DNA of 64,000 nt. Origin: Clostridia bacterium (lineage in GTDB: Bacteria; Bacillota; Clostridia; Oscillospirales; Acutalibacteraceae). The notes below the pieces were generated by a model, which saw nothing but the letters and a program-made list of their open reading frames with translations, did no database searches and was not told the origin of the DNA. The stretch covers positions 246,360 through 310,359 of the forward strand of contig JAFZUV010000007.1 of assembly GCA_017618135.1 (NCBI GenBank), read 5' to 3'. Positions 4,610 through 52,097 of this stretch are shown here, one piece after another; position 1 is the stretch's first letter, and the number at the start of each line of letters is the position of its first letter. The position numbers were made by a program, and so were the translations under genes.

Positions 4610-4726
4610 AGGTTTTCACCAAATATAATTAGTGTATTTTATAGTACATTATCACACTAAATTGGTGGTTTTGTCAATACCTAATTTTAAAATTCGATGC
4701 AATTAGGGCAGATTTATAAAAAAAGC

Positions 4727-4755
4727 TTGATTTTTCAGTGCTTTTATGATATCAT
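4727..4755 (+). promoter_or_regulatory. Promoter of rplS
   Basis: TTGATT at 4727-4732 and TATCAT at 4750-4755 with a 17-bp spacer, placed about 20 bases before the structured leader and about 120 bases before rplS. Confidence 0.65.
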
Positions 4756-4774
4756 AACAAAGCATTTGATTTCA

Positions 4775-4840
4775 CCTTCCCTTAGAGGTGGGTTTAATGC
4801 CGAAATATCGACATTGAAGCGGGCGGTCCTCTAAGCTATT
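4775..4840 (+). promoter_or_regulatory. L19 leader RNA (ribosomal-protein autoregulatory leader), candidate
   Basis: CTTAGAGG at 4781-4788 pairs perfectly with CCTCTAAG at 4828-4835, enclosing a second helix TTTAATG (4793-4799) with CATTGAA (4812-4818). Firmicutes rplS transcripts are known to carry such a small leader, thought to bind L19 itself. The fold, size and position fit; the family assignment was not checked by a covariance search. Confidence 0.7.
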
Positions 4841-4878
4841 GTTTATGAACGCTTGAAAGAATTAAGGAGGAAAATTTA

Positions 4879-5223
4879 ATGGATGTTTTGAAGGAATTTA
4901 CAGCCTCTCAGATTAAAGAGGATGCGCCCGAGATTATTATAGGTAGTACAGTAAGGGTGCATGTACGCATAAAGGAAGGCGAGAAAGAGCGTATTCAGGT
5001 TTTTGAAGGTACGGTAATCGCTAAGAATAATTCCGGCATTTCCGAAACATTTACGGTTCGCCGCATTTCTTACGGAGTCGGAGTTGAGCGTGTTTTCCCG
5101 TTGCATTCACCGATAGTGGCAAAGGTTGAGCTTGTCAGAAAAGGTAAGGTTCGCAGAGCGAAGCTGTATTATCTGCGTGATAGAGTCGGAAAGGCCGCGA
5201 AGGTTAAAGAACTTATCGGCTAA
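4879..5223 (+). CDS. rplS: 50S ribosomal protein L19
   Basis: 114 residues, normal length. L19 sits at the 30S-50S interface of the ribosome. Seen: the family blocks [48 protein letters not shown] and [21 protein letters not shown] (each cited in part). AAGGAGG is correctly spaced before the ATG. It has its own promoter and leader, and a terminator-like hairpin follows, so most transcripts probably end before lepB; some read-through would link L19 to signal peptidase, a common Firmicutes neighbourhood. Confidence 0.97.
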
Positions 5224-39583: not shown

Positions 39584-41608
39584 ATGCATAAAAACAAGGA
39601 TAAGAACTTGATCGATTATATGAGCGTTGATAAGGAAAATACAGAGCTGAGAGAGGCAGTTTCCGCTTTAACGGCGGACAATGCACGGTTGAACGCAGAA
39701 ATTAACAGGATGAAAAGTACCGTTTCCTGGAAGATTACATTGCCAATAAGAATAGTAAGATCTGCGATTAGCAGGGTTATGAGATTTGCAAGAAGATGCT
39801 TTCATATTTTGAGGTGTTTGACACCTACAAATATCAGAAAAGCGTTTAGGCTTATAAGAGTTGTTGGTATTAAACGCACCGTCAAAGCTGCCAGGTACAG
39901 GTTGTCTACAAATCTTTCAGACCCCTACATCAATTGGATGAGTAATAATGATCCAAGTTCCGCAGAGCTTGAAAAACAAAGACGCGAGCGCTTTGTAATC
40001 AATCCAAAAATAAGCATTTTAGTCCCTGTGTATAACACTCCTATAAACTTTTTTGAGGAACTTATCATAAGTATTGTTAATCAAACCTATAAGAATTGGG
40101 AATTATGTCTGGAGGACGGCAGCCCCGAAGCAAACGGTGAGATTGCTAAAATTTGTAAGAAGGATAAAAGAATCAAGTATAACTATACCGGCAATAATTT
40201 AGGGATTGCGGGCAACACAAATGAAGCACTTAAGCGGGCTACGGGTGATTATATTGCACTTTTGGACCATGATGATTTTTTGCCGCCAAATTGCCTGTAT
40301 GAAATTGTAAAGGCAATAAACGATGATCCTGATGTTGAGTTCATTTATACCGACGAAGATAAGTTTACTACACTGGACAAGCCGCGTTTTGACCCGCATT
40401 TTAAACCTGATTTTGCAATTGATACTCTGCGTGCGGTAAACTATATATGCCATTTCAGCGTTTTCAGGCGGGATATTATGGAAAAGCTTGGCGGCGAAAG
40501 AATGGAATATGACGGTGCACAGGATTATGATTTGATAATTCGTATGGCGGAAATAGCGCACAATATAAAGCACATACCGAAAATTTTATACCATTGGCGA
40601 GTCCACGATAATTCGACATCAAAAGCTGATTCTGAAGCAAAGCCGTATGCCTTTGAAGCGGGAATAAAGGTCTTACAAGATCATTTGAAGCGCATTGGAA
40701 TTGACGGTACTGTGTCTCACGGTGCAACACTTGGAACATACCGGATTGATTATAAGGTTGTCGGCAGTCCGAAAGTCACAATACTTATTCCGAACTATAA
40801 TGAAGCGGATACGCTTAAGGTCTGTGTTGATTCCATTCTTAAACTTACTACCTATAAAAACTATGAGATTGCGATAATTGAAAATAACAGTACTGAAAAT
40901 TCGATATTTGATTATTATGACGAACTTGAAAAAAATGACCGTATTAAGGTATTAAGATATCCAGATAATGGATTTAATTATTCGCGCATTATAAATTTCG
41001 GAATTAAGAATACTGACGGTGAATACATCGTTCAATTAAATAACGATACTGAGCTTCTCACGCCTGATTGGCTTGAAAAAATGGTCGGAATGTGTCAGCG
41101 TGAGGATGTTGGATGTGTAGGTGTTAAGTTGTATTATCCCGATAATACCATTCAGCACGCGGGAGTTATTTTAGGTATGGGAGGCATTGCCGGACATCTG
41201 TTTAAAGGACTGGATAGAAATCAGCATGGCTATTTTTCACGAGACAGTCATATTCAGAATATGACTGTCGTAACCGCGGCTTGTATGATGTCAAAACGCT
41301 CGGTTTATGAACAGGTGGGCTTTATGGATGAAAAGCTTGCCGTAGCTTTTAACGATGTTGATTTTTGCATGAAGGTTATTTCTTCAGGAAAACTGATAAT
41401 ATACAATCCGTTTGTCGAATTCATACATTATGAATCTAAATCGCGTGGATTTGAAGACACTCCCGAAAAGGTAAAGCGTTTTAACGGCGAAATCTCATTT
41501 TTCCAAAAGAGGTGGAAGAGTGAACTTAAATCCGGAGATAAGTATTACAATATGAACTTTCGTTTAGATAACGATCAGTATGCGATAAAAGAAGAAAAAG
41601 TAGAATAA
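39584..41608 (+). CDS. Two-domain family 2 glycosyltransferase
   Basis: 674 residues, soluble. A predicted coiled coil (about 15-45) is followed by a basic linker and two GT-A domains. Domain 1 (about 145-380): ISILVPVYNTP, DGSPEANGE, NLGIAGNTNEALK and the metal motif DHDD. Domain 2 (about 400-650): VTILIPNYNEADTL, ENNSTENS, NYSRIINFGIK and NNDTELL as metal-motif equivalent. Such dual GT2 enzymes, often rhamnosyl- or galactosyl-type, build surface polysaccharides at the inner membrane face. Sugar specificity cannot be read. First gene of the operon. Confidence 0.88.
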   Translation: MHKNKDKNLIDYMSVDKENTELREAVSALTADNARLNAEINRMKSTVSWKITLPIRIVRSAISRVMRFARRCFHILRCLTPTNIRKAFRLIRVVGIKRTVKAARYRLSTNLSDPYINWMSNNDPSSAELEKQRRERFVINPKISILVPVYNTPINFFEELIISIVNQTYKNWELCLEDGSPEANGEIAKICKKDKRIKYNYTGNNLGIAGNTNEALKRATGDYIALLDHDDFLPPNCLYEIVKAINDDPDVEFIYTDEDKFTTLDKPRFDPHFKPDFAIDTLRAVNYICHFSVFRRDIMEKLGGERMEYDGAQDYDLIIRMAEIAHNIKHIPKILYHWRVHDNSTSKADSEAKPYAFEAGIKVLQDHLKRIGIDGTVSHGATLGTYRIDYKVVGSPKVTILIPNYNEADTLKVCVDSILKLTTYKNYEIAIIENNSTENSIFDYYDELEKNDRIKVLRYPDNGFNYSRIINFGIKNTDGEYIVQLNNDTELLTPDWLEKMVGMCQREDVGCVGVKLYYPDNTIQHAGVILGMGGIAGHLFKGLDRNQHGYFSRDSHIQNMTVVTAACMMSKRSVYEQVGFMDEKLAVAFNDVDFCMKVISSGKLIIYNPFVEFIHYESKSRGFEDTPEKVKRFNGEISFFQKRWKSELKSGDKYYNMNFRLDNDQYAIKEEKVE

Positions 41609-41627
41609 TGTTTTGTGAGGATATGTA

Positions 41628-43895
41628 ATGCAGTTTTTGAAAGATAATTTGGTAATGGGCGCCGAAAAATACAGATATATGTTTTTCGGCTTTTTTATTG
41701 CGGTAATTATTATTTTTTCATATAAGTTCATAGCATCATATCGTATGGAACTAAAAAAGAATAACAAACTCCTTGCAAACATTTCAAAACTTTTTGAAAA
41801 TAAGTATTTGAGAATACTTTTTTCAGTTTCATTGCCTCTTGCGGTAGAAATGATTGTCTTTAAGAACTATAGGTTGTTATTCAACATTGATTCATATTAC
41901 AGACTGTTTTACTGCTACGGCTTTATCGGTATGCTTTACCTATTTAAATTTTTATCTCGCTTTTCCGATAAGTTTAGAGCGGCTTTGAGTTTTATTGTAA
42001 AACACAGATACTCAATAGCTCTGATTGTGTTTGCCCTGTTTGTCATATTTAAAATCAATTTTTCCTCGATAGGTATGTGGGATGCATATGTGAGAGAAGG
42101 AAAATCATCTACACTTTTCGGAACCCCACGGTCTATTCGCTCGGACGAATGGCTTGTGGGCTCGCCTTTTACTTTATCACAGCAATATAACAACTATAGT
42201 CTTGTAAACGATAATTTGGCGCTTGGCAATAACGATATGAATTTGTTCAGGACTCCTGTTATAGATTTCTCTTTGCCGATGCGCGTTATGTATTGGGGCT
42301 TTTTCATTTTCGGAAATGAAATGGGTTTTGCCTGGCTTTGGTCATTTAAGCTTATAGCATTGTTTATGATTTCGTTTGAACTCGGCATGATGATTACCGG
42401 AAAGGATAAAAGCGTATCCCTTTTGTGTGCGTTTTGGATAACCTTTTCACCGATTATTATGTGGTGGTCAATTAGCGAACAATTTCTCTTTGGCATAGGT
42501 GTTATTGTTTTGTTCCATACCTATGTTGCAAATCCGGATTTAACGCTTGCCAAAAAAATTCTTATAGCGTATGCTATGTGCATATGCTTGTGTAATTTTG
42601 CATATGCGATATATCCCGCGTGGCAAATACCTTTTGCATATCTGATACTTGCTTTTGTAATCACCGACTCGGTTCGGTATCACAAAAATCTTAAGAAAAA
42701 AGATTATATTATTATGTCGTCAACTTTGATGGCGGCATTGGCGTTCATCGCATATTTCATAGTGACATCGCTTCCGAGCATAAACGCTCTGTTAAGCACC
42801 AAATATCCGGGTACTCGCGACATTACAGGCGGCGATTATGACTTAAAGAGATTGTTCAATTATTATTCAAATTTATTTACACCTTTTTTAAAGTTTTCAA
42901 AAAAATTTCCAAACCCATCCGAAATCTCCGCGGTTATTTGTCCGACGATTTCCGTATTTCTTATCATTGCTTTAGGTGCGTTCGCGGTAATTAAGGAAAA
43001 AAGAATAAAGAAATATATTAAGGATAGTAAGAATTGGTATTTGTTTTCTGTACTTGCTGTGATTTCTTATTTTGCTTTATGGCTAATGTTGCCTTGGAAC
43101 AGGATATTGAGAAAAGTTACATTGATGTATTTTTCTCCGGAAATAAGAACTGAAACTATCGCTCAAATTGCTTTTTTGATATTGATTATTATTCTTGCCG
43201 GCAAAATCTTTAACCGAAAAAGGCCGTTATTAAATAAGTGTGCTGCTTTTTTCGTATCTGTCGGGTTATCCGTTTTTGCGTATTTCATGGTTGCTAAGAG
43301 TAATTTCAGCGGATTATTTACCGGACTTATGTTTTTAGTTCTTGTGAGCATGATTTTTATAATGAACTATACTTTTCTTTCGGCTAATAAAAAGGCATTT
43401 ATATTTACAATGATTATCATTTGCATCATTACAGGCGCAACGGTTAACCCTGTGTGCTCGGGTACGGCAGTTATAAATGAAACAAAGATTGCAAAAGCAG
43501 CAGTAAGTATAGCTGAGAACGATACCGGAACAATTTGGGCGGGTGAGACTCAGGCAAATGCGCAATATCTGTTGGCAAACGGAATAAAAGTGATAAACGG
43601 CGTAAATGAGTATCCTAATTATGCTTGGATTGATAAATTAGATCCTGAACATAAGTATGAAGAGGTATGGGACAGATACGCTCATATATTGATTTCTCCG
43701 TCTGAAGGTGAGAAATTTGAGTTGCTTGGCGGAGATATTTATATAATGCACTTATCATATGATGACTTTAAAAGCCTTGGTATCAAGTATTTTTATTCAT
43801 ATAATAAATACGATGCAAATGTGATGAAAACATATATGATGTCGTGTGTTTATTCGGATGATTTATCCGGTCAGTATATTTACAAAATCGAATAG
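41628..43895 (+). CDS. Large polytopic membrane protein, GT-C-like (DUF7657-type)
   Basis: 755 residues, about 13 membrane helices and a C-terminal soluble part. The first loop has GTPRSIRSDEWLVGSPFTLSQ, a motif typical of a Clostridia membrane family next to cell-surface glycosyltransferases, where an Asp/Glu in the first outer loop suits a polyprenyl-phosphate-sugar transferase. Activity is not proven. It lies 19 bases after the GT2 gene and 17 before the next GT. Confidence 0.7.
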   Translation: MQFLKDNLVMGAEKYRYMFFGFFIAVIIIFSYKFIASYRMELKKNNKLLANISKLFENKYLRILFSVSLPLAVEMIVFKNYRLLFNIDSYYRLFYCYGFIGMLYLFKFLSRFSDKFRAALSFIVKHRYSIALIVFALFVIFKINFSSIGMWDAYVREGKSSTLFGTPRSIRSDEWLVGSPFTLSQQYNNYSLVNDNLALGNNDMNLFRTPVIDFSLPMRVMYWGFFIFGNEMGFAWLWSFKLIALFMISFELGMMITGKDKSVSLLCAFWITFSPIIMWWSISEQFLFGIGVIVLFHTYVANPDLTLAKKILIAYAMCICLCNFAYAIYPAWQIPFAYLILAFVITDSVRYHKNLKKKDYIIMSSTLMAALAFIAYFIVTSLPSINALLSTKYPGTRDITGGDYDLKRLFNYYSNLFTPFLKFSKKFPNPSEISAVICPTISVFLIIALGAFAVIKEKRIKKYIKDSKNWYLFSVLAVISYFALWLMLPWNRILRKVTLMYFSPEIRTETIAQIAFLILIIILAGKIFNRKRPLLNKCAAFFVSVGLSVFAYFMVAKSNFSGLFTGLMFLVLVSMIFIMNYTFLSANKKAFIFTMIIICIITGATVNPVCSGTAVINETKIAKAAVSIAENDTGTIWAGETQANAQYLLANGIKVINGVNEYPNYAWIDKLDPEHKYEEVWDRYAHILISPSEGEKFELLGGDIYIMHLSYDDFKSLGIKYFYSYNKYDANVMKTYMMSCVYSDDLSGQYIYKIE

Positions 43896-43912
43896 AAATT
43901 AATAGGGGACAT

Positions 43913-44620
43913 ATGAAAACACTAATTATTATACCTGCGTTTAATGAGGAATCTTGCATACTTAAAACCGTAAATGATGTTCTTGAGCATAACAAGAAAT
44001 ATGCAACCGATTACGATGTCATTGTGATAAATGACGGTTCTACAGACTGCACAGAAAAGGTTTTGACTGATAATGATATACCTCATATCTGTTTGATTCA
44101 GAATCTTGGTATCGGCGGCGCGGTTCAGACAGGATACAAATATGCTTTGATGAATAATTATGATGTCGCAATACAATTTGACGGCGACGGCCAGCACGAT
44201 ATATCTTATGCAAAAGACTTGATTGACGAAATTAATAACGGTGCCGATATGGCTATTGGTTCTCGCTTTGTAAGCAATGAACAATCCGGATTTAAGTCAT
44301 CCGCGGCAAGGCGTGTAGGTATTAAGATTATTTCTTTATTTATAAAGCTTTTTACAGGTAAAAGAGTTTATGACCCTACTTCCGGATTCAGGGCGTGTAA
44401 CAAAACCCTTATCAAACTGTTTTCAAAAAGCTATCCCACAGAATATCCCGAGCCGGTATCGGAGGTTACAGTGTTAAAGCATAAATTGAAAATTTCTGAA
44501 ATACCGGCTAATATGTACGAACGGCAGGGCGGAAAATCTTCAATACATGCCTGGAAAAATGTTTATTATATGATAAATGTAACACTGGCTATGCTTGCGG
44601 AAAGTCTAAAGAGGTATTGA
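43913..44620 (+). CDS. Polyprenyl-phosphate glycosyltransferase (DPM1-like GT2)
   Basis: 235 residues without C-terminal membrane helices. Seen: IIPAFNEESCILKTV, VINDGSTDCTEK, NLGIGGAVQTGYKYA, the metal motif FDGDGQHD, GSRF, and YDPTSGFRACNKTL. It should load a sugar onto undecaprenyl phosphate. The next gene encodes a DUF2304 protein, the common membrane partner of this enzyme type, and the GT-C-like protein upstream would be the consumer of the lipid-linked sugar. Confidence 0.88.
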   Translation: MKTLIIIPAFNEESCILKTVNDVLEHNKKYATDYDVIVINDGSTDCTEKVLTDNDIPHICLIQNLGIGGAVQTGYKYALMNNYDVAIQFDGDGQHDISYAKDLIDEINNGADMAIGSRFVSNEQSGFKSSAARRVGIKIISLFIKLFTGKRVYDPTSGFRACNKTLIKLFSKSYPTEYPEPVSEVTVLKHKLKISEIPANMYERQGGKSSIHAWKNVYYMINVTLAMLAESLKRY

Positions 44621-44621
44621 A

Positions 44622-44972
44622 ATGTCACTGAATTTAAAAATATTGTCGCTTGTTTTTGTGCTGGTTATGACTGTTGGGATATTACTTATTGTAAGAAAAG
44701 GTAAGATGTCTCTTAAGTATTCTATCGTATGGTATGCTTGCCTTTTTGTTCTAACGCTTTTCATTCTTTTTCCTGATGTACTCGTATGGGTTACGAAGAT
44801 TTTCGGCATACAGGTTTCTTCAAACTTTGTGCTTGTTTTTTTGATTGCAACGCTATTTATAATTTGCATTTCTCTTACAATCATTGTATCGGACCAGAAT
44901 GAAAAAATCAGGGATTTGATTCAAGAAATCAGTATTTTAAAGAATAATGACGACTTTTTAAAAAAACAATAA
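44622..44972 (+). CDS. DUF2304 membrane protein
   Basis: 116 residues with three helices (LSLVFVLVMTVGILLIVRKG, SIVWYACLFVLTLFILFP, FVLVFLIATLFIICISLTI) and a coiled-coil tail; the fixed RKGKMSLKYSIVWY block is typical of DUF2304. Begins one base after the glycosyltransferase stop. DUF2304 proteins are thought to anchor or assist the adjacent polyprenyl-phosphate glycosyltransferase. Last gene of the operon. Confidence 0.85.
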   Translation: MSLNLKILSLVFVLVMTVGILLIVRKGKMSLKYSIVWYACLFVLTLFILFPDVLVWVTKIFGIQVSSNFVLVFLIATLFIICISLTIIVSDQNEKIRDLIQEISILKNNDDFLKKQ

Positions 44973-45852: not shown

Positions 45853-47778
45853 ATGAAAAGGACAAAATATACCGGCATAAACAAGCTTTTTAAAAGCGAT
45901 GCTTTGCAGGTTCTTATAAATAAGATTTATGACGGTACTTTTTCCGAATTCATTGACGATTGGAAATGGATTTTCAGTTTTTCTAAGAGGTATAAAGTAA
46001 TCATACTGTTTTATACACTGGTGGGTATTTTTACTTCAACCTTGTCGCTCGGTGCCGCGTGGCTTAGTAAAATTCTTATAAACATAATTGTGGGCAAGCA
46101 GGTCGACAGAGTTTGGCTTTTACTTGGTTCAATGATTGGTATGACGGTCTTTTCGCTCATATTCTCAAGTATAAGCAGCCGTATTTTTACGAGAATATCA
46201 ATTTATGTTAATAATGATATTCAGGCGGAGATTTTTGATCGTATTATTGATGCAAGGTGGAAGGAATTAAGCAAATACCCGAGCGGTGATTTGCTTAATC
46301 GGTTCAACAACGATGTCAGTACAATATCCGGTAATGCGATAGGGTGGATACCTAATCTGATCATCAATATTTACACATTTATAATCACATTTTTTGCACT
46401 TTTCAAAACCGATCCTACCATGGCGTGGATAGCATTTCTTTCAGCGCCCTTCTTACTTGCAATGAGTAGGTATATACTGCGTAAAATGAAAGAATACCGT
46501 AAGCGCGTTTTGGAGCTTAATTCTAAAATGATGAGTTTTGAGGTTGAAACCTTTTACAACTTTGATATGATAAAGTCATTCGGTATATTCGGTCATTATT
46601 CAAAAAAATTGCGTGAGTGGCAGAAGCTTTTTAAGAATTTCAGCCTTGATTATAATAAATTTGAAATTAAATCAAAAATACTTCTCACTCTTGTTTCAAC
46701 ACTTGTTTCGCTCGCGGCTTTCGGATACTGTCTTTACAGGCTTTGGACCGGTCAAATACAGTATGGTGATATGACATTCTTTTTACAGCAGAGATCTGCA
46801 TTGTCGGGCAGGTTCAACAGCCTTGTCGGTACAATTCCCGGTATGCTCAATTCCGCAGTTTCCGCACACAGAGTCAGAGAACTTATCGATTTACCACGTG
46901 AAACGCATAATATTGAATCTTATGAAGCATTAAAAAAATATGCTGATACCGGTATCACAGTTAAATTCAACGAAGTATCTTTTCGATATGACGATAAATC
47001 TGACATAAACATATATGAGGACGCTGACTTTGTTGCTCGACCCGGTGAAATTGTGGCGGTGATTGCAGCTTCGGGAGGCGGAAAGACAACCTTTATGAGA
47101 TTGCTGCTCGGTATGCTTGATGCGGAAAGCGGAAGTGTAACGCTATCCGGTGGCGATGAAGCTATGTTGCCGGTCAATGCCGATCTCAGAAATTTCTTTT
47201 CGTATGTGCCGCAAGGGAACACAGTGCTTTCGGGTACGGTGGCTGAGAATATGAGAATGGTTAAAAATGACGCCACGGATGAGGAAATAATCGGCGCACT
47301 CAAAACCGCTTGCGCATACGATTTTGTATCCAAACTTGAAGGTGGAATAAACGGTAAATTGGGCGAGCGTGGAAGAGGAATATCCGAGGGGCAGGCACAG
47401 CGTATTTCAATAGCCCGCGCAATTCTTCGCAATTCGCCTATATTACTCCTCGATGAGGCTACAAGTGCGCTTGATGTGGAAACAGAGGAGCAAGTGCTTA
47501 AAAATATTATTAAAGCGCAACCCAACAGGGTAATTATCGTTTCTACACATCGACCGAGTGCGCTTAAGCTTTGCAGTCGCATTTACCGTATTTCGGACGG
47601 CGGGTTTAAATCGGTGGACTTTGACGAGGCGGCAAAGCTTATCTGGCAATATGCCGATATGCCTGTCTCACCCGAAAAAACGATAGTGTCTCCAATAGCA
47701 AATGATATTCCGATTTCACAGATTGATCAAATTGATATACTTCCAAACAGTACAAACCAAGGATGGTGGAACGAATGA
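45853..47778 (+). CDS. ABC exporter (fused permease and ATPase) of the putative peptide system
   Basis: 641 residues. Six-helix type I exporter domain (about 30-345) and a nucleotide-binding domain (about 375-610). Walker A reads AASGGGKTT (about 404-412), where the first Gly is Ala; the signature reads ISEGQAQR (usual LSGGQ); Walker B ILLLDEATSALD and the H-loop STHRPS are normal. GGGAGGT before the ATG. No N-terminal C39 peptidase domain, so cargo would be matured by another protease, possibly the S26-type one at 49.7 kb. Its stop overlaps the acyltransferase start (ATGA). A non-peptide cargo cannot be excluded. Confidence 0.88.
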   Translation: MKRTKYTGINKLFKSDALQVLINKIYDGTFSEFIDDWKWIFSFSKRYKVIILFYTLVGIFTSTLSLGAAWLSKILINIIVGKQVDRVWLLLGSMIGMTVFSLIFSSISSRIFTRISIYVNNDIQAEIFDRIIDARWKELSKYPSGDLLNRFNNDVSTISGNAIGWIPNLIINIYTFIITFFALFKTDPTMAWIAFLSAPFLLAMSRYILRKMKEYRKRVLELNSKMMSFEVETFYNFDMIKSFGIFGHYSKKLREWQKLFKNFSLDYNKFEIKSKILLTLVSTLVSLAAFGYCLYRLWTGQIQYGDMTFFLQQRSALSGRFNSLVGTIPGMLNSAVSAHRVRELIDLPRETHNIESYEALKKYADTGITVKFNEVSFRYDDKSDINIYEDADFVARPGEIVAVIAASGGGKTTFMRLLLGMLDAESGSVTLSGGDEAMLPVNADLRNFFSYVPQGNTVLSGTVAENMRMVKNDATDEEIIGALKTACAYDFVSKLEGGINGKLGERGRGISEGQAQRISIARAILRNSPILLLDEATSALDVETEEQVLKNIIKAQPNRVIIVSTHRPSALKLCSRIYRISDGGFKSVDFDEAAKLIWQYADMPVSPEKTIVSPIANDIPISQIDQIDILPNSTNQGWWNE

Positions 47779-48854
47779 GTGAAAAAATTTTATCGGCCTT
47801 TTATGATGATGAAAGTAAAAACTATCATTCCAGGACTGATATATTAAGATTTTTGCTTGTTCCGTTTATGTTCTTTGTGCTTTTAGGCTTCCCCGGGAAA
47901 TACGGCGGCTATATATCAACATACAGTAACTTTGTGGCTCAAGCGTTTTTTATCCTTTACGGCTTTTTCACCCTCGTTCCCGATAAGGACAAGCGCAATA
48001 AGAAATTAAAAAAGGCATTTAAGCGCTCATTTAAATTTTTTGCTATTATGCTTCTAAGCTATCTGGCATTAAACATATTATATATTGCATATTTTAATGC
48101 ACTGCCCAGCCTGTTAAGTGCAGAGTTTTTGCGCAAGCGCACATTTTTTGATTTTTTAGTGCTTAACATCTGGCCGTTACCCGTAGGAAATAGTATTTGG
48201 TTTATTCAAAGCCTTGTATATGCGTATGCTTTCTTTCTGATTGCCGAAAAAATAAAACTGGATAAACTATATATCCCGATTTTGATAATACTTATAATAT
48301 TTACACTTCTTACAGGAGAGCTTGCGGCATTTTTCGGTTTCCCGCATTTCGGATACTCTTATATCCCTGCCGGCGCATTTACACGCGCGATACCCTATAT
48401 GCTTATAGGGATGCTTATCAGGAAAATGGTTGATATACTTTCTAAAATACCACAGTTTATCTATTTGATTTTGTTTATAGTAGGTCTTTTGGCGGCGATT
48501 GCGGAGATTGAAGTTCTAAACAGAATAGGTAAACTTGCCTACACAGGGCACACCGTAGGCTTCGGCATAATGGCGATATCCCTTTGCTGCTTTGCAATAA
48601 GCCGGCCGGTAATCAAAAAGAACTTTTTAAGCTACCACGGCAGAAGCTATTCAAAAAGAATGTATGCTTTTTGCCAGCCTGCTTTCTTCCTTTGCTGGAT
48701 ATTTACAGCCCTTATAAATCCTGCCTTTGTGGGCATTGTGCGAGCATACGGCAGTATAATATCATTTGCATTGAGCTTTCTTATAACATTTATTATAGGT
48801 ATTGTAAGATATGCAATAGTTGTAGAAAAAAGCAAAAAGGAAAAATTACATTAA
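47775..48854 (+). CDS. Acyltransferase-3-type membrane protein
   Basis: 359 residues, ten predicted helices, from ATG 47775 in an ATGA overlap with the exporter. The topology and the block NSIWFIQSLVYAYAFFLIAEK recall the OafA/YrhL acyltransferase-3 family that moves acyl groups across the membrane onto sugars or small molecules. The catalytic N-terminal His of that family is less clear here (RTDILRFLLVPFMFF), so it could be a relative without that chemistry. Coupling with the exporter suggests they act on the same product. Confidence 0.65.
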   Translation: MSEKILSAFYDDESKNYHSRTDILRFLLVPFMFFVLLGFPGKYGGYISTYSNFVAQAFFILYGFFTLVPDKDKRNKKLKKAFKRSFKFFAIMLLSYLALNILYIAYFNALPSLLSAEFLRKRTFFDFLVLNIWPLPVGNSIWFIQSLVYAYAFFLIAEKIKLDKLYIPILIILIIFTLLTGELAAFFGFPHFGYSYIPAGAFTRAIPYMLIGMLIRKMVDILSKIPQFIYLILFIVGLLAAIAEIEVLNRIGKLAYTGHTVGFGIMAISLCCFAISRPVIKKNFLSYHGRSYSKRMYAFCQPAFFLCWIFTALINPAFVGIVRAYGSIISFALSFLITFIIGIVRYAIVVEKSKKEKLH

Positions 48855-48902
48855 AAAAATATTATTTAGCACAAAATTACATAATTTGGCATAAAAAAAG
48901 TG

Positions 48903-48931
48903 TTGACATTATGATATATTTGTGTTATAAG
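48903..48931 (+). promoter_or_regulatory. Promoter of the candidate precursor gene
   Basis: TTGACA at 48903-48908 and TATAAG at 48926-48931 with a 17-bp spacer. Confidence 0.85.
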
Positions 48932-48967
48932 TAATATATACTAATTTACATATGAGGGGATTATACG

Positions 48968-49360
48968 ATGAAAAGACTAACAAATCCAGAATTAAAAGTT
49001 ATTCGTTTCGCAAGTGAAGATGTAATTGCTACAAGCCTTTATTACGCACCTTCTGCTGCGTTTAATGCTATCAACGGCACAAGCTTTACAAGCGATTTTG
49101 TTGAGTTTGAAGGTTCTATGACAAGTTATGACCCTGCCGCAGGCGGTTATTCCGTATCAAACATATATAATGTAAAAGCCGCAAACAATGATGATATAGA
49201 TGGGTTGAAGTCCGGCGGTAGCTGGGTTGTTCCCGGAGTTGGCATTACTATAGATATGTCAAGTATGGCTCCTGTTGCACGACAGTCATATAATGCATAT
49301 TCATATGAAGGTGGTTTATATACCAACGGTGTAACATATTACGACACATATTGGCAGTAA
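48968..49360 (+). CDS. Candidate RiPP precursor or maturation substrate
   Basis: 130 residues, GAGGGG ribosome site. Leader-like start MKRLTNPELKVIRFASEDVI followed by ATS; short 'E-V-x-F-x-x-E-D-V-I-x-T-S' starts recur in small Clostridia peptides near maturation genes. The rest has no membrane helix or enzyme motif, is poor in Lys/Arg and Cys-free, and becomes very rich in Tyr, Ser, Gly and Asn toward the end (SYNAYSYEGG, TNGVTYYDTYWQ). It has its own strong promoter and a terminator directly after, the classic arrangement for abundant precursor and scarce enzymes. Product structure unknown. Confidence 0.7.
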   Translation: MKRLTNPELKVIRFASEDVIATSLYYAPSAAFNAINGTSFTSDFVEFEGSMTSYDPAAGGYSVSNIYNVKAANNDDIDGLKSGGSWVVPGVGITIDMSSMAPVARQSYNAYSYEGGLYTNGVTYYDTYWQ

Positions 49361-49373
49361 TAATCTATAAAGC

Positions 49374-49405
49374 AACCTCCCCTGTTTTTCAGGGGAGGTT
49401 TTTTG
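49374..49405 (+). terminator. Terminator/attenuator after the precursor gene
   Basis: AACCTCCCCTG pairs with CAGGGGAGGTT, then TTTTTG. It separates the precursor from the processing genes. Confidence 0.9.
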
Positions 49406-49434
49406 TTGCAAAAAATTCTTCATTGTGATAGAAT
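49406..49434 (+). promoter_or_regulatory. Candidate internal promoter for the processing genes
   Basis: TTGCAA at 49406-49411 and TAGAAT at 49429-49434 with a 17-bp spacer, directly after the terminator. Confidence 0.6.
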
Positions 49435-49464
49435 ACAGTCAAGAAAGATTTGGTGAGGTTTTAT

Positions 49465-49734
49465 ATGAGACTCAGATATGAATTTACAATAATGGATATG
49501 GGCGATGAGTTTGCCGCGGTACCCGTAGGCGAGGATGCCTCAAAATTCCACGGTATGCTTAAAATGAATGCAGTATCCGCCGATATACTTGAACAATTAA
49601 AGGAGGATACGGATCCTGCTACCGTTCACAAATACCTTAAAGAAAAATATCCCGATTCCACAGATGATGAAATCGGTAATGCTCTGGCGCCGTTTTTAAA
49701 TCAGTTACTGAAAGAAAATCTTTTGATAGATTAG
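49465..49734 (+). CDS. PqqD-like peptide-recognition protein
   Basis: 89 residues from ATG 49465 (TGAGGT upstream). Order: beta strands (MRLRYEFTIMDMGDEFAAVPVG), a strand-turn (GMLKMNAVSADILEQL) and winged-helix-like helices with TDDEIGNALAPFLNQLLKENLL. This is the PqqD layout, the RiPP recognition element that binds leader peptides and presents them to modifying enzymes; the N-x-x-(S/A)-x-x-(I/L)-(L/W) stretch after the strands is typical. The neighbouring candidate substrate is the 130-residue protein upstream. Confidence 0.8.
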   Translation: MRLRYEFTIMDMGDEFAAVPVGEDASKFHGMLKMNAVSADILEQLKEDTDPATVHKYLKEKYPDSTDDEIGNALAPFLNQLLKENLLID

Positions 49735-49746
49735 TGTGTTTTGCGT

Positions 49747-50214
49747 ATGAATGGTGAAAGTTCTTTTGAGCGCGAGCTTTCCGTTGGCGGAAAATTGGTG
49801 TTTACAAATGTGGGCGTCAGTATGTTGCCGCTATTGCGCGAGGGCAGAGATATAATGCAAATAGAGGCTTTAAGTAGTAGTCCTAAAAGATATGATACCG
49901 TGCTTTTCAGGCGTGAAGGTATCAAGGGCAGAGGCAGATATGTTTTGCACCGTATTCTTAAAAGAAAAGGTGAAAAGTACTTTATCGCCGGTGATTATGA
50001 TACTCGCGGTGAATTGGTTAGCCGCGAGCAGATTTTAGGTGTTCTTACCGCCGTTTTTCGCGAAGGTAGAGTTATAAAAACAAGTGATTTTAAATATAAG
50101 CTGTATGTTCGGTTTTGGTGTGCGCCTTATCATTTGCGCTTTTTCATTTTAAAGCTATACAGAGGTATCAAATATTTAATTTCTGCAGTTAAGTATAAAA
50201 TTTTCGGAAGATAG
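49747..50214 (+). CDS. S26-type Ser/His signal-peptidase-like protease
   Basis: 155 residues from ATG 49747. Seen: GVSMLPLL with nucleophile Ser25, VLFRR, and VLHRILKRKGEKYFIAGDYD with His68 where bacterial LepB has Lys, plus Asp83/85. It thus follows the Ser/His (SipW/ER/archaeal) type. There is no membrane helix before the Ser, unlike normal signal peptidases, so it may be cytosolic or attached by the hydrophobic C-terminal part (FWCAPYHLRFFILKLYRGIK). In this context it is the best candidate for leader removal. It starts 12 bases after the PqqD-like stop. Confidence 0.75.
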   Translation: MNGESSFERELSVGGKLVFTNVGVSMLPLLREGRDIMQIEALSSSPKRYDTVLFRREGIKGRGRYVLHRILKRKGEKYFIAGDYDTRGELVSREQILGVLTAVFREGRVIKTSDFKYKLYVRFWCAPYHLRFFILKLYRGIKYLISAVKYKIFGR

Positions 50215-50227
50215 TTTTGAGGTTTTT

Positions 50228-50959
50228 ATGATTTTTAACATATCTGTTGCCGGTATTAATATCGGTATTGAGAGCATCTATGATGCGGTATATGAAATGT
50301 GCAGCAAGTATATTACGGATAGTGAGCCTGATTTTGTTGTATCAGTTACTGGTAGCGACATAGATTTTGAGCGTCAAAAATCAATATCGGAAGCTAAGTA
50401 TGAGGGCAGACCGTGTTATAATTATGCCCCAGAATATCTTGAAACACTCGCAGTGTATAGAAAGATCGCTACGGGTCTTTTATATTACGAGGCTTTTTTA
50501 ATGCACGGATCCGCTGTCGCGCTTGACGGTAAGGCTTATGTTTTTACTGCGCCTTCAGGCGTCGGCAAAACAACTCATACCGGATTTTGGTTGGCAAAGT
50601 ATCCTGACGCTTTTGTAATAAACGGTGATAAGCCTATCATTCGGTTTATTAATGATCGCGTTTTTGTTTGCGGTACTCCCTGGTCAGGAAAAGAGCAAAT
50701 AAATACTAATGCTATTTTGCCTCTGAAAGCTGTATGTGTTCTTTTCAGAGGCGAGGAGAATTTAATTGAACCTATAGAGTTTAAAAGAATTTTTCCGTTA
50801 GTTTTAGGGCAAATATACCGCCCGTCAGATAGAACCGCCGCAGAGAAAACACTTTCGTTGCTTAAAAAATTTGGTGAAAGTGTGGAGTTTTACACAATGA
50901 ATTGCAATTTAGATCCCGATGCTGCTCGTGTGGCTAAAGAGGGAATGAATTATGAATAA
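50228..50959 (+). CDS. HPr-kinase/PEPCK-like P-loop kinase
   Basis: 243 residues. Walker A APSGVGKTTHTGFW at about 107-120 with upstream MHGSAVALDGKAYVFT, then INGDKPIIRF and GTPWSGKEQINTN, the pattern of HprK-fold kinases found in lasso-peptide clusters such as the paeninodin locus, where the enzyme phosphorylates a Ser of the precursor. It lacks the N-terminal HprK domain of the genuine HPr kinase, and no HPr gene is near, so carbon-regulation is unlikely. Expected role: phosphorylation of the precursor. Overlaps the next gene by 8 bases. Confidence 0.8.
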   Translation: MIFNISVAGINIGIESIYDAVYEMCSKYITDSEPDFVVSVTGSDIDFERQKSISEAKYEGRPCYNYAPEYLETLAVYRKIATGLLYYEAFLMHGSAVALDGKAYVFTAPSGVGKTTHTGFWLAKYPDAFVINGDKPIIRFINDRVFVCGTPWSGKEQINTNAILPLKAVCVLFRGEENLIEPIEFKRIFPLVLGQIYRPSDRTAAEKTLSLLKKFGESVEFYTMNCNLDPDAARVAKEGMNYE

Positions 50960-52097
50960 TACACAAGCAACCGTACTTGAACTGATTAAAGCCTCTCTTT
51001 TCGGTATATCTCCCGATTTCCCCGAAGAGATAGACTGGGAATCGGTTTTTAAGGAGGCAAAAGAACAAACCGTTTTGGCGTTGGCTTTCAGTGCGGTTCC
51101 CAAAGAGTTTGCTGTCAGTTGGGAAATATCCGCAATGCAATCGCAGGCGCATTTTATGCGTGCGCTTTACGAGCAGTCAAAGCTTTGCAACTTATTTGAT
51201 GATGCCGCGGTACCTTTTGTTATTATAAAGGGCGCAGCGGCGGCGATATACTATCCAAATCCGAATATGCGCACTATGGGTGATATTGATGTTCTTGTGA
51301 GCGAGAACAATTTTGACGCCGCCTTCAGTTTGCTTGTGGAAAACGGATATATGTTTAATTGTGATTATGGTGACGGAAGAGACTATTCGTTTAGTAAGGA
51401 CGGGCTTATTTTTGAACTGCACCGTCGTTACAGCGATTATGATTATAATATTGAGGATTATATACAAAACTGGATTGATAAATCCGAGAAGCTTTCGTTA
51501 TACGGCAACACATTTCCCGCACTTCCTAAGGCGGAAAACGGGCTAATTATCCTTGACCATATCCGCCATCACTTAGTTGGCGGATTAGGTATCAGACAAA
51601 TAATTGACTATATGATGTTTGTAAACTCGGTAAAGAACGAAAAAGAGTTCGAGGAAGTCCATTTGCCTTTGTATCAAAAAACAGGTCTTTTGACATTGGC
51701 AAAGGTAATTATAAAAATGTGTAAGATTTATTTTGGTTTTCCTGTTTCGGCAACCTGGTGCGATGACGCTGACAGCAAGACCTGCGACGAATTGCTTGAA
51801 TGTGTGTTAACTAGCGGGAATTTTGGCAGGAAAGACCCATATGAGTACAGACCTGTGCGGTCTCTCACTATGGATATTAAACAAAACGGCGTATTTAAGG
51901 CATTACAAACGGCAGGTTTAGAAAACAGTGAGTTTATAAAAAATCATAAATTATTGCATCCGTTTGCCTGGATATATCAGACATTCCGTTATATAAAAAG
52001 GGGAATTGCCGCTCTTGTAAAAGGAGAAAGATTTAAGGGAGACATTTCCTCAGGGAAGCAAAAAACGGATTTCTATAAACGATTGGGTATAAAATAA
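50952..52097 (+). CDS. Nucleotidyltransferase family protein (NTP_transf_5-like)
   Basis: 381 residues. Seen: PFVIIKGAAAAIYYPNPNMRTMGDIDVLV, quoted in part, with the G-x-x-(R)-x-x-x-D-I-D pattern of nucleotidyltransferase fold enzymes; DxD is GDIDVL at about residue 111. The region HHLVGGLGIRQIIDYMMF is also typical. Such proteins accompany PqqD-like and HprK-like genes in several RiPP loci, where their reaction is not established. ATG 50952 overlaps the kinase stop, so the two are translationally coupled and probably act together. Confidence 0.78.
   Translation: MNNTQATVLELIKASLFGISPDFPEEIDWESVFKEAKEQTVLALAFSAVPKEFAVSWEISAMQSQAHFMRALYEQSKLCNLFDDAAVPFVIIKGAAAAIYYPNPNMRTMGDIDVLVSENNFDAAFSLLVENGYMFNCDYGDGRDYSFSKDGLIFELHRRYSDYDYNIEDYIQNWIDKSEKLSLYGNTFPALPKAENGLIILDHIRHHLVGGLGIRQIIDYMMFVNSVKNEKEFEEVHLPLYQKTGLLTLAKVIIKMCKIYFGFPVSATWCDDADSKTCDELLECVLTSGNFGRKDPYEYRPVRSLTMDIKQNGVFKALQTAGLENSEFIKNHKLLHPFAWIYQTFRYIKRGIAALVKGERFKGDISSGKQKTDFYKRLGIK

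Follow-up and report, generated by a model that had tools for sequence, protein, structure and literature searches.

Gene content and layout of the locus

We analysed a window of 64 kb (the whole stretch of DNA under study) from a Clostridia bacterium of the family Acutalibacteraceae, which forms part of contig 17 in a genome of 1.63 Mb and 20 contigs. Our subject is a run of seven genes on its + strand, between positions 45853 and 52097, which an earlier note had read as a cyclase-free cluster resembling those for ribosomally synthesised and post-translationally modified peptides (RiPPs). A check of the open reading frames (ORFs) found all seven genes in the order given there. They are listed below with the signals around them; counterparts are named after the lpp cluster of Paenibacillus alginolyticus DSM5050, described for linear polyphosphorylated peptides (LPP) (PMC13381572).

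45795..45823, + strand: sigma-70-like promoter (TTGACA-17-TATAAT) ahead of the exporter gene, proposed from its 12/12 consensus match only
45853..47778, + strand: MsbA-like ABC exporter (ABC_membrane and ABC_tran by Pfam), 641 aa; predicted LppD counterpart
47763..48854, + strand: acyltransferase-3-like (AT3-like) multi-pass membrane protein, 363 aa, assigned through relatives, with no Pfam match of its own
48968..49360, + strand: precursor, 130 aa (23-aa leader and 107-aa core), from the leader profile
49374..49400, + strand: intrinsic-terminator-like hairpin, 11 pairs and a T run, between the precursor and RRE genes
49465..49734, + strand: PqqD-like discrete RiPP recognition element (RRE), 89 aa (Pfam PF05402, E 1.4e-8); predicted LppB counterpart
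49741..50214, + strand: S26/SipW-like Ser-His-Asp peptidase, 157 aa, from conserved residues and relatives; predicted LppS counterpart
50228..50959, + strand: HprK-related kinase, 243 aa, from conserved residues and relatives; predicted LppK counterpart
50952..52097, + strand: NTP_transf_5 nucleotidyltransferase, 381 aa (Pfam PF14907, E 3.3e-36); predicted LppN counterpart

The tight arrangement with overlapping starts that had been ascribed to the locus holds at two junctions, exporter/AT3-like and kinase/nucleotidyltransferase; elsewhere the genes do not overlap, and 104 bases containing the terminator-like hairpin separate the precursor gene from the PqqD-like gene. Because a scan of the region found 3 terminator-like sites, with 5.7 expected in shuffles, the hairpin is proposed solely from its 11-pair stem and T run. 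Promoter-like sites numbered 27 against a shuffle mean of 21.4 (sd 4.0), and a candidate promoter of the precursor itself (TTGACA, 17 bases, TATAAG near 48902) failed the scan rule and is not claimed. The RRE gene runs from an ATG at 49465 to a stop at 49734, with a longer TTG frame from 49450, and the peptidase gene has a possible alternative ATG at 49747.

The window's kinase, peptidase and AT3-like protein have no Pfam match of their own. For the peptidase, the earlier assignment to a Ser/His S26 type lacking a membrane helix before the serine was borne out: S27, H70 and D85 are kept in 98–99% of 116 sequences, and the 26 residues that precede the Ser form no obvious membrane helix by eye. 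The profile of its family matches signal peptidase I (4nv4) weakly, at E 0.015. The kinase has the P-loop S110-G-V-G-K114-T-T-H117 as well as H93 and D134, and the P-loop Lys, H93 and D134 are invariant over 115 sequences. ScmC, HprK-related kinase A (HprK_rel_A) and HprK-related kinase B (TIGR04249, TIGR04352 and TIGR04355) are matched at E<=0.1 by 19 (best 5.1e-9), 15 (best 1.1e-4) and 10 of 24 kinase-family members, whereas the window's own kinase has no match at that threshold. SynChlorMet-type cassettes pair an HprK-like with a PqqD-like protein, and the window cluster differs from the ScmC type in having no radical-SAM gene. In the PDB, a profile of the same 24 sequences found weak matches to phosphoenolpyruvate carboxykinase (E 0.0034) and to HPr kinases (E 0.008–0.010), and a search with a single kinase sequence gave nothing of use. 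The nucleotidyltransferase bears the motif G-D111-I-D113, and the residues conserved across all three enzyme families are intact in the window. In three related loci (loci are cited by L numbers) the kinase and the peptidase are fused in one ORF, namely L065 (9297–10439, 380 aa), L165 (6296, 415 aa) and L169 (2869, 401 aa), and phosphorylation therefore appears tied to cleavage; a kinase-peptidase fusion relative matches Peptidase_S24 at 1.4e-8.

The top NCBIfam match of the exporter is MsbA, under the cut-off of that family, and an exporter is a neighbour in the related loci too; the domain search of its 641 residues gave no C39 peptidase match. Of the seven proteins, the exporter alone drew PADLOC matches, to four families (best mads_3 at 8.5e-25). 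These matches were set aside because they were taken as general ABC/AAA ATPase likeness, and anti-phage defence was rejected as an explanation of the locus.

Recurrence of the gene set, its leader and the RRE contact

Of 150 genomes sampled from the family to which the window belongs, 72 have relatives of the kinase, and relatives of the peptidase are present in 54 of the 61 searched genomes of the genus. The loci from named genomes are the best 80 of 358, picked by the peptidase, which is consequently present in 80/80 by construction; among these best 80 there are 68 with the kinase, 64 with the RRE, 50 with the nucleotidyltransferase, 57 with some ABC ATPase and 13 with an AT3-like gene, and 36 have all five core parts. 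By their titles they are mostly metagenome-assembled genomes (MAGs) of rumen and gut Clostridia; records not titled as MAGs include Ruminococcus flavefaciens strains and Clostridiales bacterium NK3B98 (L155), which we take to be a cultured strain. Six loci that are contig repeats (L147, L151, L152, L159, L160 and L163) were dropped from the leader, RRE, tree, residue and long-core counts and are still inside the 80-locus tally.

The window precursor begins with the leader MKRLTNPELKVIRFASEDVIATS, 23 residues ending in a conserved Ser (codon 49034–49036), which is followed by 107 residues rich in Ser, Tyr, Gly and Ala with a C-terminal motif of the type YNAYSY..GLYTNGVTYY. The protein has no family match in Pfam, NCBIfam or PADLOC; searched alone against the PDB it gave one match (E 0.29), judged to be chance, and a typed composite leader, used to look for the LppA leader chain there, returned only designed or solenoid repeat proteins. 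Tiny ORFs with a common start lie upstream of the kinase relatives. A leader profile built from 21 seeds, the window precursor among them, was scanned against 17,413 ORFs of 134 loci and the window, and recognised 56 ORFs at E<=1e-4, with 0 reversed and 0 shuffled ORFs at the same threshold; at E<=1 the numbers were 63, 0 and 2. Thirty of the 56 leader-bearing ORFs lie in loci that contributed no seed. Across all 64 kb of the window the profile has a single match at E<=1, the 130-aa precursor (5.2e-10), itself a seed. The consensus of the 63 aligned leaders is K-Y-x-x-P-E-L/M-E-V/I-I/V-x-F-D/E-x-E-D-V/I-I-T/A-T-S; the final Ser is kept in 56 of them and the Asp five residues ahead of it in 60.

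These comparisons establish that the gene set is found repeatedly in Clostridia of the gut and rumen and that its precursors there have a leader in common, in agreement with the earlier reading as a cyclase-free RiPP-like cluster. The expectation that a precursor-like gene would recur beside the set was likewise upheld, in that 36% of the scanned bases fall within 2 kb of a gene for the kinase, the RRE or the peptidase, and 46 of the 56 leader ORFs lie there; 2 of the 56 are on contigs without any such gene.

The kinship of the RRE is equally clear from comparison. In the PDB, a profile of 22 family sequences matches TbiB1 (1.1e-9), PbaB1 (9x90, 3e-7), LppB (9x8z, 5.5e-7) and TfuB1 (7.5e-7), whereas the PQQ-type PqqD is a poorer match (0.021) than LppB and the lasso B1 chains; with a single RRE sequence, no PqqD-type chain was found among the best 60 of 71 matches. 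In the crystal contact described for LppB, Asp70 holds Tyr-16 of the leader and Asn33 holds Pro-13 (PMC13381572). The window RRE keeps the Asn (N35 for N33) and the Phe (F77 for F74) and has A73 in place of D70, and its leader has Leu at the Tyr position and keeps the Pro, so that both the [Y/W]xxP leader motif and the RRE Asp of LPP are missing. Over 103 RREs the equivalent of Asn33 is Asn in 101 and that of Asp70 is Asp in 66.

Over 48 loci in which a leader could be read and an RRE is present, the leader Tyr and the RRE Asp are both present in 29 and both absent in 17, with Tyr only in one (L169) and Asp only in another (L044, Phe); limited to leaders at E<=1e-4 the table reads 27, 16, 1 and 1 of 45. 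It omits L126, L132 and L224, which have a gap at the leader Tyr column, and includes L058, whose leader peptide, like that of L060, is doubtful (E 0.08–0.09). Fisher's test gives p 7e-11 with kinship ignored. A quick tree, built from the joined sequences of peptidase and kinase, covers 42 of the 48 loci; it omits L035, L043, L044, L129, L131 and L223, which have no kinase or peptidase match, L044 being the Asp-without-Tyr exception. It gives about one joint Tyr/Asp change (Tyr 2 changes, Asp 1; 2 independent pairs), falling on the 14-locus branch that holds the window (13 loci with neither residue and L169; SH-like approximate likelihood ratio, SH-aLRT, 95). Because the tree gives about one joint change, the association is not claimed as statistically independent; the loss appears to mark a clade, in keeping with the crystal contact, and not to be a coincidence that recurred. 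The short-core loci L035, L129 and L131 have Phe and Ser in place of Tyr and Asp.

One of these, L035, lies in the window's own genome (contig 12, 4898–7617) and holds a second pair of RRE and S26 peptidase genes with an adjoining secreted-looking protein; a 34-aa peptide, MFKKANLDIYEIDVEDIIMASEGDYTGDEEDPFA, is encoded 1.8 kb away from the pair, and near-alike peptides occur in L129 and L131. The same genome has a second kinase on contig 13 (L036) and a second nucleotidyltransferase on contig 9 (L037), both away from L035. In L044, L045, L049 and L050 a low-complexity ORF, lipoprotein-like by eye, immediately precedes the kinase, and those of L045 and L050 end in aromatic residues (WTNFY, WSGWY) much as some short precursors do (GEWY, GAWY).

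Long cores and their AT3-like partner

The 14 cores from AT3-bearing loci, the window included, measure 86–119 residues, and 40 of the 42 others measure 7–32, the outliers having 60 (L170) and 100 (L207); L192, one of the 57 leaders, was not counted here owing to its long upstream frame. An AT3-like gene is present in all 13 non-redundant long-precursor loci (the window, L116, L118, L120, L121, L143, L144, L146, L153, L155, L195, L223 and L224), so that the pairing of the two genes is a matter of observation, and 10 of the 13, again with the window, have the complete gene set. L120, L143, L144 (with its AT3-like gene broken into two ORFs), L146 and L155 share with the window the order ABC-AT3-precursor-RRE-S26-HprK-NTP. 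L116 has two diverged copies of the AT3-precursor pair and single copies of the other genes. The contig of L156 opens within a precursor-like ORF, and this locus is left out of the long-precursor tally. In L153 (452–8683, a red-deer Eubacterium record) the AT3-like, precursor and RRE genes are placed ahead of the exporter, and the precursor (4620–5021) retains both the leader and the C-terminal motif.

Three loci, L155, L195 and L224, keep the leader and the AT3-like gene and lack the C-terminal motif, their cores being completely different by eye; because of this the core seems to be replaceable and the leader not. The observation bears on the view that the 130-aa product is an ordinary small protein, secreted or structural, next to a kinase, RRE and peptidase that act on other peptides. 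Such a protein would be expected neither to carry a 23-residue leader that places it in one family with the short peptides encoded next to these genes elsewhere, nor to show leader Tyr and RRE Asp positions that vary together, nor to exchange its core under a persistent leader and AT3-like gene. We therefore hold this view to be improbable, even with a protein-sized core, with the terminator-like site between the precursor and RRE genes, with a gap of over 4 kb between the precursor and the closest RRE, S26 or HprK gene in L118, L121 and L224, and with two loci (L223 and L224) that have neither peptidase nor kinase.

In the AT3-like family, 8 of 16 proteins match PF01757 (Acyl_transf_3) at E<=1 (best 3.7e-11) and the window copy does not. 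The relatives are 29–95% identical to it, and a PDB search with the profile of the family gave one match, by chance (E 6.5). Acyltransferase-3 enzymes have a conserved catalytic His. None of the His columns among the 16 sequences is invariant, the top two being kept in 14 and 13, and the acylation part of the earlier reading is unproven. The pairing with long precursors suggests that the AT3-like protein is a precursor-specific partner, outside the general machinery.

A partner of this kind could also be an immunity protein. In a bacteriocin-like toxin-immunity system the core would be an antibacterial effector, the AT3-like protein its cognate immunity and the rest a general maturation apparatus; one AT3-like gene per long precursor, the co-duplication in L116, the leader kept while cores vary and the patchy occurrence of the precursor (profile matches in 8 of 70 genomes from the genus, with a full-length precursor in 6) are all in line with it. 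We nevertheless think such a system unlikely, since the precursor belongs to no Pfam, NCBIfam or PADLOC family and half of the 16 AT3-like proteins, for all their spread of identity, match an enzyme family; nor do the published LPPs have an assigned role (PMC13381572).

Relation to LPP and lasso pathways

The supposition that the locus is of a kind without precedent did not stand. This core set has been described under the name LPP (Popov et al., Nat Commun, 20 May 2026, PMC13381572), and what is said here of LPP follows that paper. LPP clusters encode an S26/SipW-like peptidase, an RRE, an HprK-like kinase, a nucleotidyltransferase and an MsbA-like exporter, and all five are found in the window cluster, the likeness of its peptidase and kinase being drawn from conserved residues and relatives, not from Pfam matches of their own. 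The lpp kinase adds several phosphates to one core Ser, the phosphorylation having been seen in B. subtilis; the leader is removed by the peptidase together with the RRE, for which the catalytic Ser, His and Asp are required; and deletion of the nucleotidyltransferase gene, lppN, brought no visible change (PMC13381572). The nucleotidylation part of the earlier reading is, with this deletion in the published system, unproven for the window as well. The LppS triad S29, H68 and D93 corresponds by motif and order to S27, H70 and D85 of the window peptidase. LPP and the window share a conserved N-terminal leader, a Ser at or just past its end and a variable C-terminal part; neither needs a cyclase or B2, and the 130 aa of the window precursor fall inside the LPP range of 35–200 aa (PMC13381572).

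The leaders themselves differ, being YxxPxVLxHQxIxFETxxS in LPP and MKRLTNPELKVIRFASEDVIATS in the window, or KYxxPELEVIxFxxEDVITTS as a clostridial consensus, and the LPP motif Px9Fx[T/A] was found in 0 of 57 clostridial leaders, the window's included. To judge by sequence, the locus falls outside strict LPP by this motif and has the machinery of LPP. The core set is already known; what appears to be new here relative to LPP as described is the different leader, the lost Tyr/Asp contact, the long cores of 86–119 residues and the AT3-like partner, all in gut and rumen Clostridia. The main text of PMC13381572 has no acyltransferase, no rumen and no Ruminococcus-, Oscillospira- or Lachnospira-type names, and some of our loci may already be in its network. 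A surface-level literature search recognised no description of the gene set aside from the LPP paper and lasso-peptide surveys. A short-core clostridial relative is Ruminococcus flavefaciens YL228 (L213), which has the same leader family and the same kinase, RRE, S26, ABC and nucleotidyltransferase genes as the window, but a 34-aa precursor, a leader Tyr, an RRE Asp and no AT3-like gene.

Paeninodin-type lasso clusters (A, C, B1, B2, K, NTP, D) share with the window an RRE (B1), an HprK-like kinase, a nucleotidyltransferase and an exporter; the window locus differs from them in having no cyclase C and no B2, an S26 peptidase instead, and a long core. The absence of a lasso cyclase and of B2 from the locus, remarked on before, was confirmed, with 0 Transglut_core3 (B2) matches in the genome and Asn_synthase homologues on contigs 1, 12 and 20 only. 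A degenerate or unconventional lasso locus, contributing B1, K and accessory NTP functions with cyclase and B2 acting in trans from elsewhere in the genome, could appeal to the shared genes, to the RRE profile's matches with lasso B1 chains and to those distant Asn_synthase homologues. It would have to do without a B2 in its own genome and in 14 of the 15 other genomes with an AT3-bearing locus; in the exception (G225) B2 lies on contig C116 with Asn_synthase, and the L195 locus of that genome has no such gene at the matching position. The window set has moreover its own dedicated S26 peptidase, and to our knowledge a 107-aa core far exceeds known lasso cores. With no B2 in the genome and no cyclase at the locus we rejected a lasso origin, to which we would give hardly any credence. 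In the lasso survey PMC7533575, HPr kinase was found in about 58%, PqqD in about 46% and nucleotidyltransferase in about 30% of the rumen genomes analysed; S24, S26 and acyltransferase go unmentioned in its main text.

We consider it probable, at about three chances in four, that this locus encodes an LPP-like RiPP pathway of Clostridia, one that makes a phosphorylated small protein of about 107 residues. In this organism the PqqD-like RRE would bind the leader of the 130-aa precursor, and the HprK-like kinase would phosphorylate, perhaps repeatedly, the conserved Ser23 at the leader-core junction, the likely acceptor by analogy with LPP. The Ser-His-Asp S26 peptidase would cut near VIATS, close to Ser23; the nucleotidyltransferase may add a further substituent to the phosphate; and secretion of the core would fall to the MsbA-like exporter. 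The AT3-like protein might serve for modification, anchoring, export aid or self-protection.

Several findings weigh against this pathway. The terminator-like site 3' of the precursor gene means that co-expression with the RRE is not established; as the RRE has no counterpart of the Asp by which LppB holds the leader Tyr, we can only infer that it binds the leader; and the want of Px9Fx[T/A] in all 57 leaders makes the cut site not transferable by alignment. A recognised leader (E<=0.5) is found in 30 of the best 80 of 358 named-genome loci. Some long-precursor loci are incomplete: L195, on a contig of about 8.9 kb, is without nucleotidyltransferase and ABC genes; L223 shows the AT3-like and RRE genes only, the nearest peptidase and kinase of its genome being on another contig; and for L224 both of these are on other contigs. 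Three of the 16 AT3-bearing loci (L117, cut at a contig end, L148 and L158) show no long precursor, and L207 has a 128-aa leader ORF with a 100-residue core and no AT3-like gene, so that long cores are possible without AT3.

If the locus is an LPP-like pathway, a recently described RiPP family studied in Bacilli is extended into gut and rumen Clostridia, where the kinase relatives are common. We would suggest, tentatively and with somewhat more doubt than confidence, that these bacteria use the LPP toolkit for secreted phospho-proteins of about 100 residues, one leader and enzyme set serving interchangeable cores, each with its own AT3-like protein that acylates, anchors or protects, and that leader and RRE have jointly dropped the Tyr-Asp handshake. 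This handshake is otherwise common to LPP and many lasso systems, and a code without it may be orthogonal. The loci provide a defined leader family and a natural variant of the leader-RRE contact that is amenable to single-residue swaps, and for RiPP engineering such a pair could serve as an orthogonal handle. They also add a branch with protein-sized products and a dedicated membrane partner, in which the role of the product is addressable in a relative such as NK3B98.

Just upstream of the cluster, at 39584–44972, the window encodes a glycosyltransferase of family GT2 (43913) and a DUF2304 protein (44622), both by Pfam, and, by eye, another glycosyltransferase-like protein and a large membrane protein. 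This content suggests a surface-glycan locus, as reported for LPP clusters in Bacilli; LPP clusters have glycosyltransferase genes nearby (PMC13381572), and in the window the GT2 is the one that was Pfam-tested.

Radical-SAM proteins stand beside the kinase, RRE and peptidase in L126 (5250–6623), L132 (11283–12644), L038 (6115–7545) and L046 (11503–12966). The candidate precursors of L126 and L132 are short and acidic, contain Cys and bear DIITTS or DVITTS; they match the leader profile weakly (E 0.19 and 0.3), and L132 has an ATP-grasp protein too; loci of this type possibly form a further branch with radical-SAM chemistry. The cluster of L214, from a MAG titled Alistipes senegalensis, groups with Ruminococcus ones in the tree, and is probably a mis-binned clostridial contig or, failing that, a transfer.

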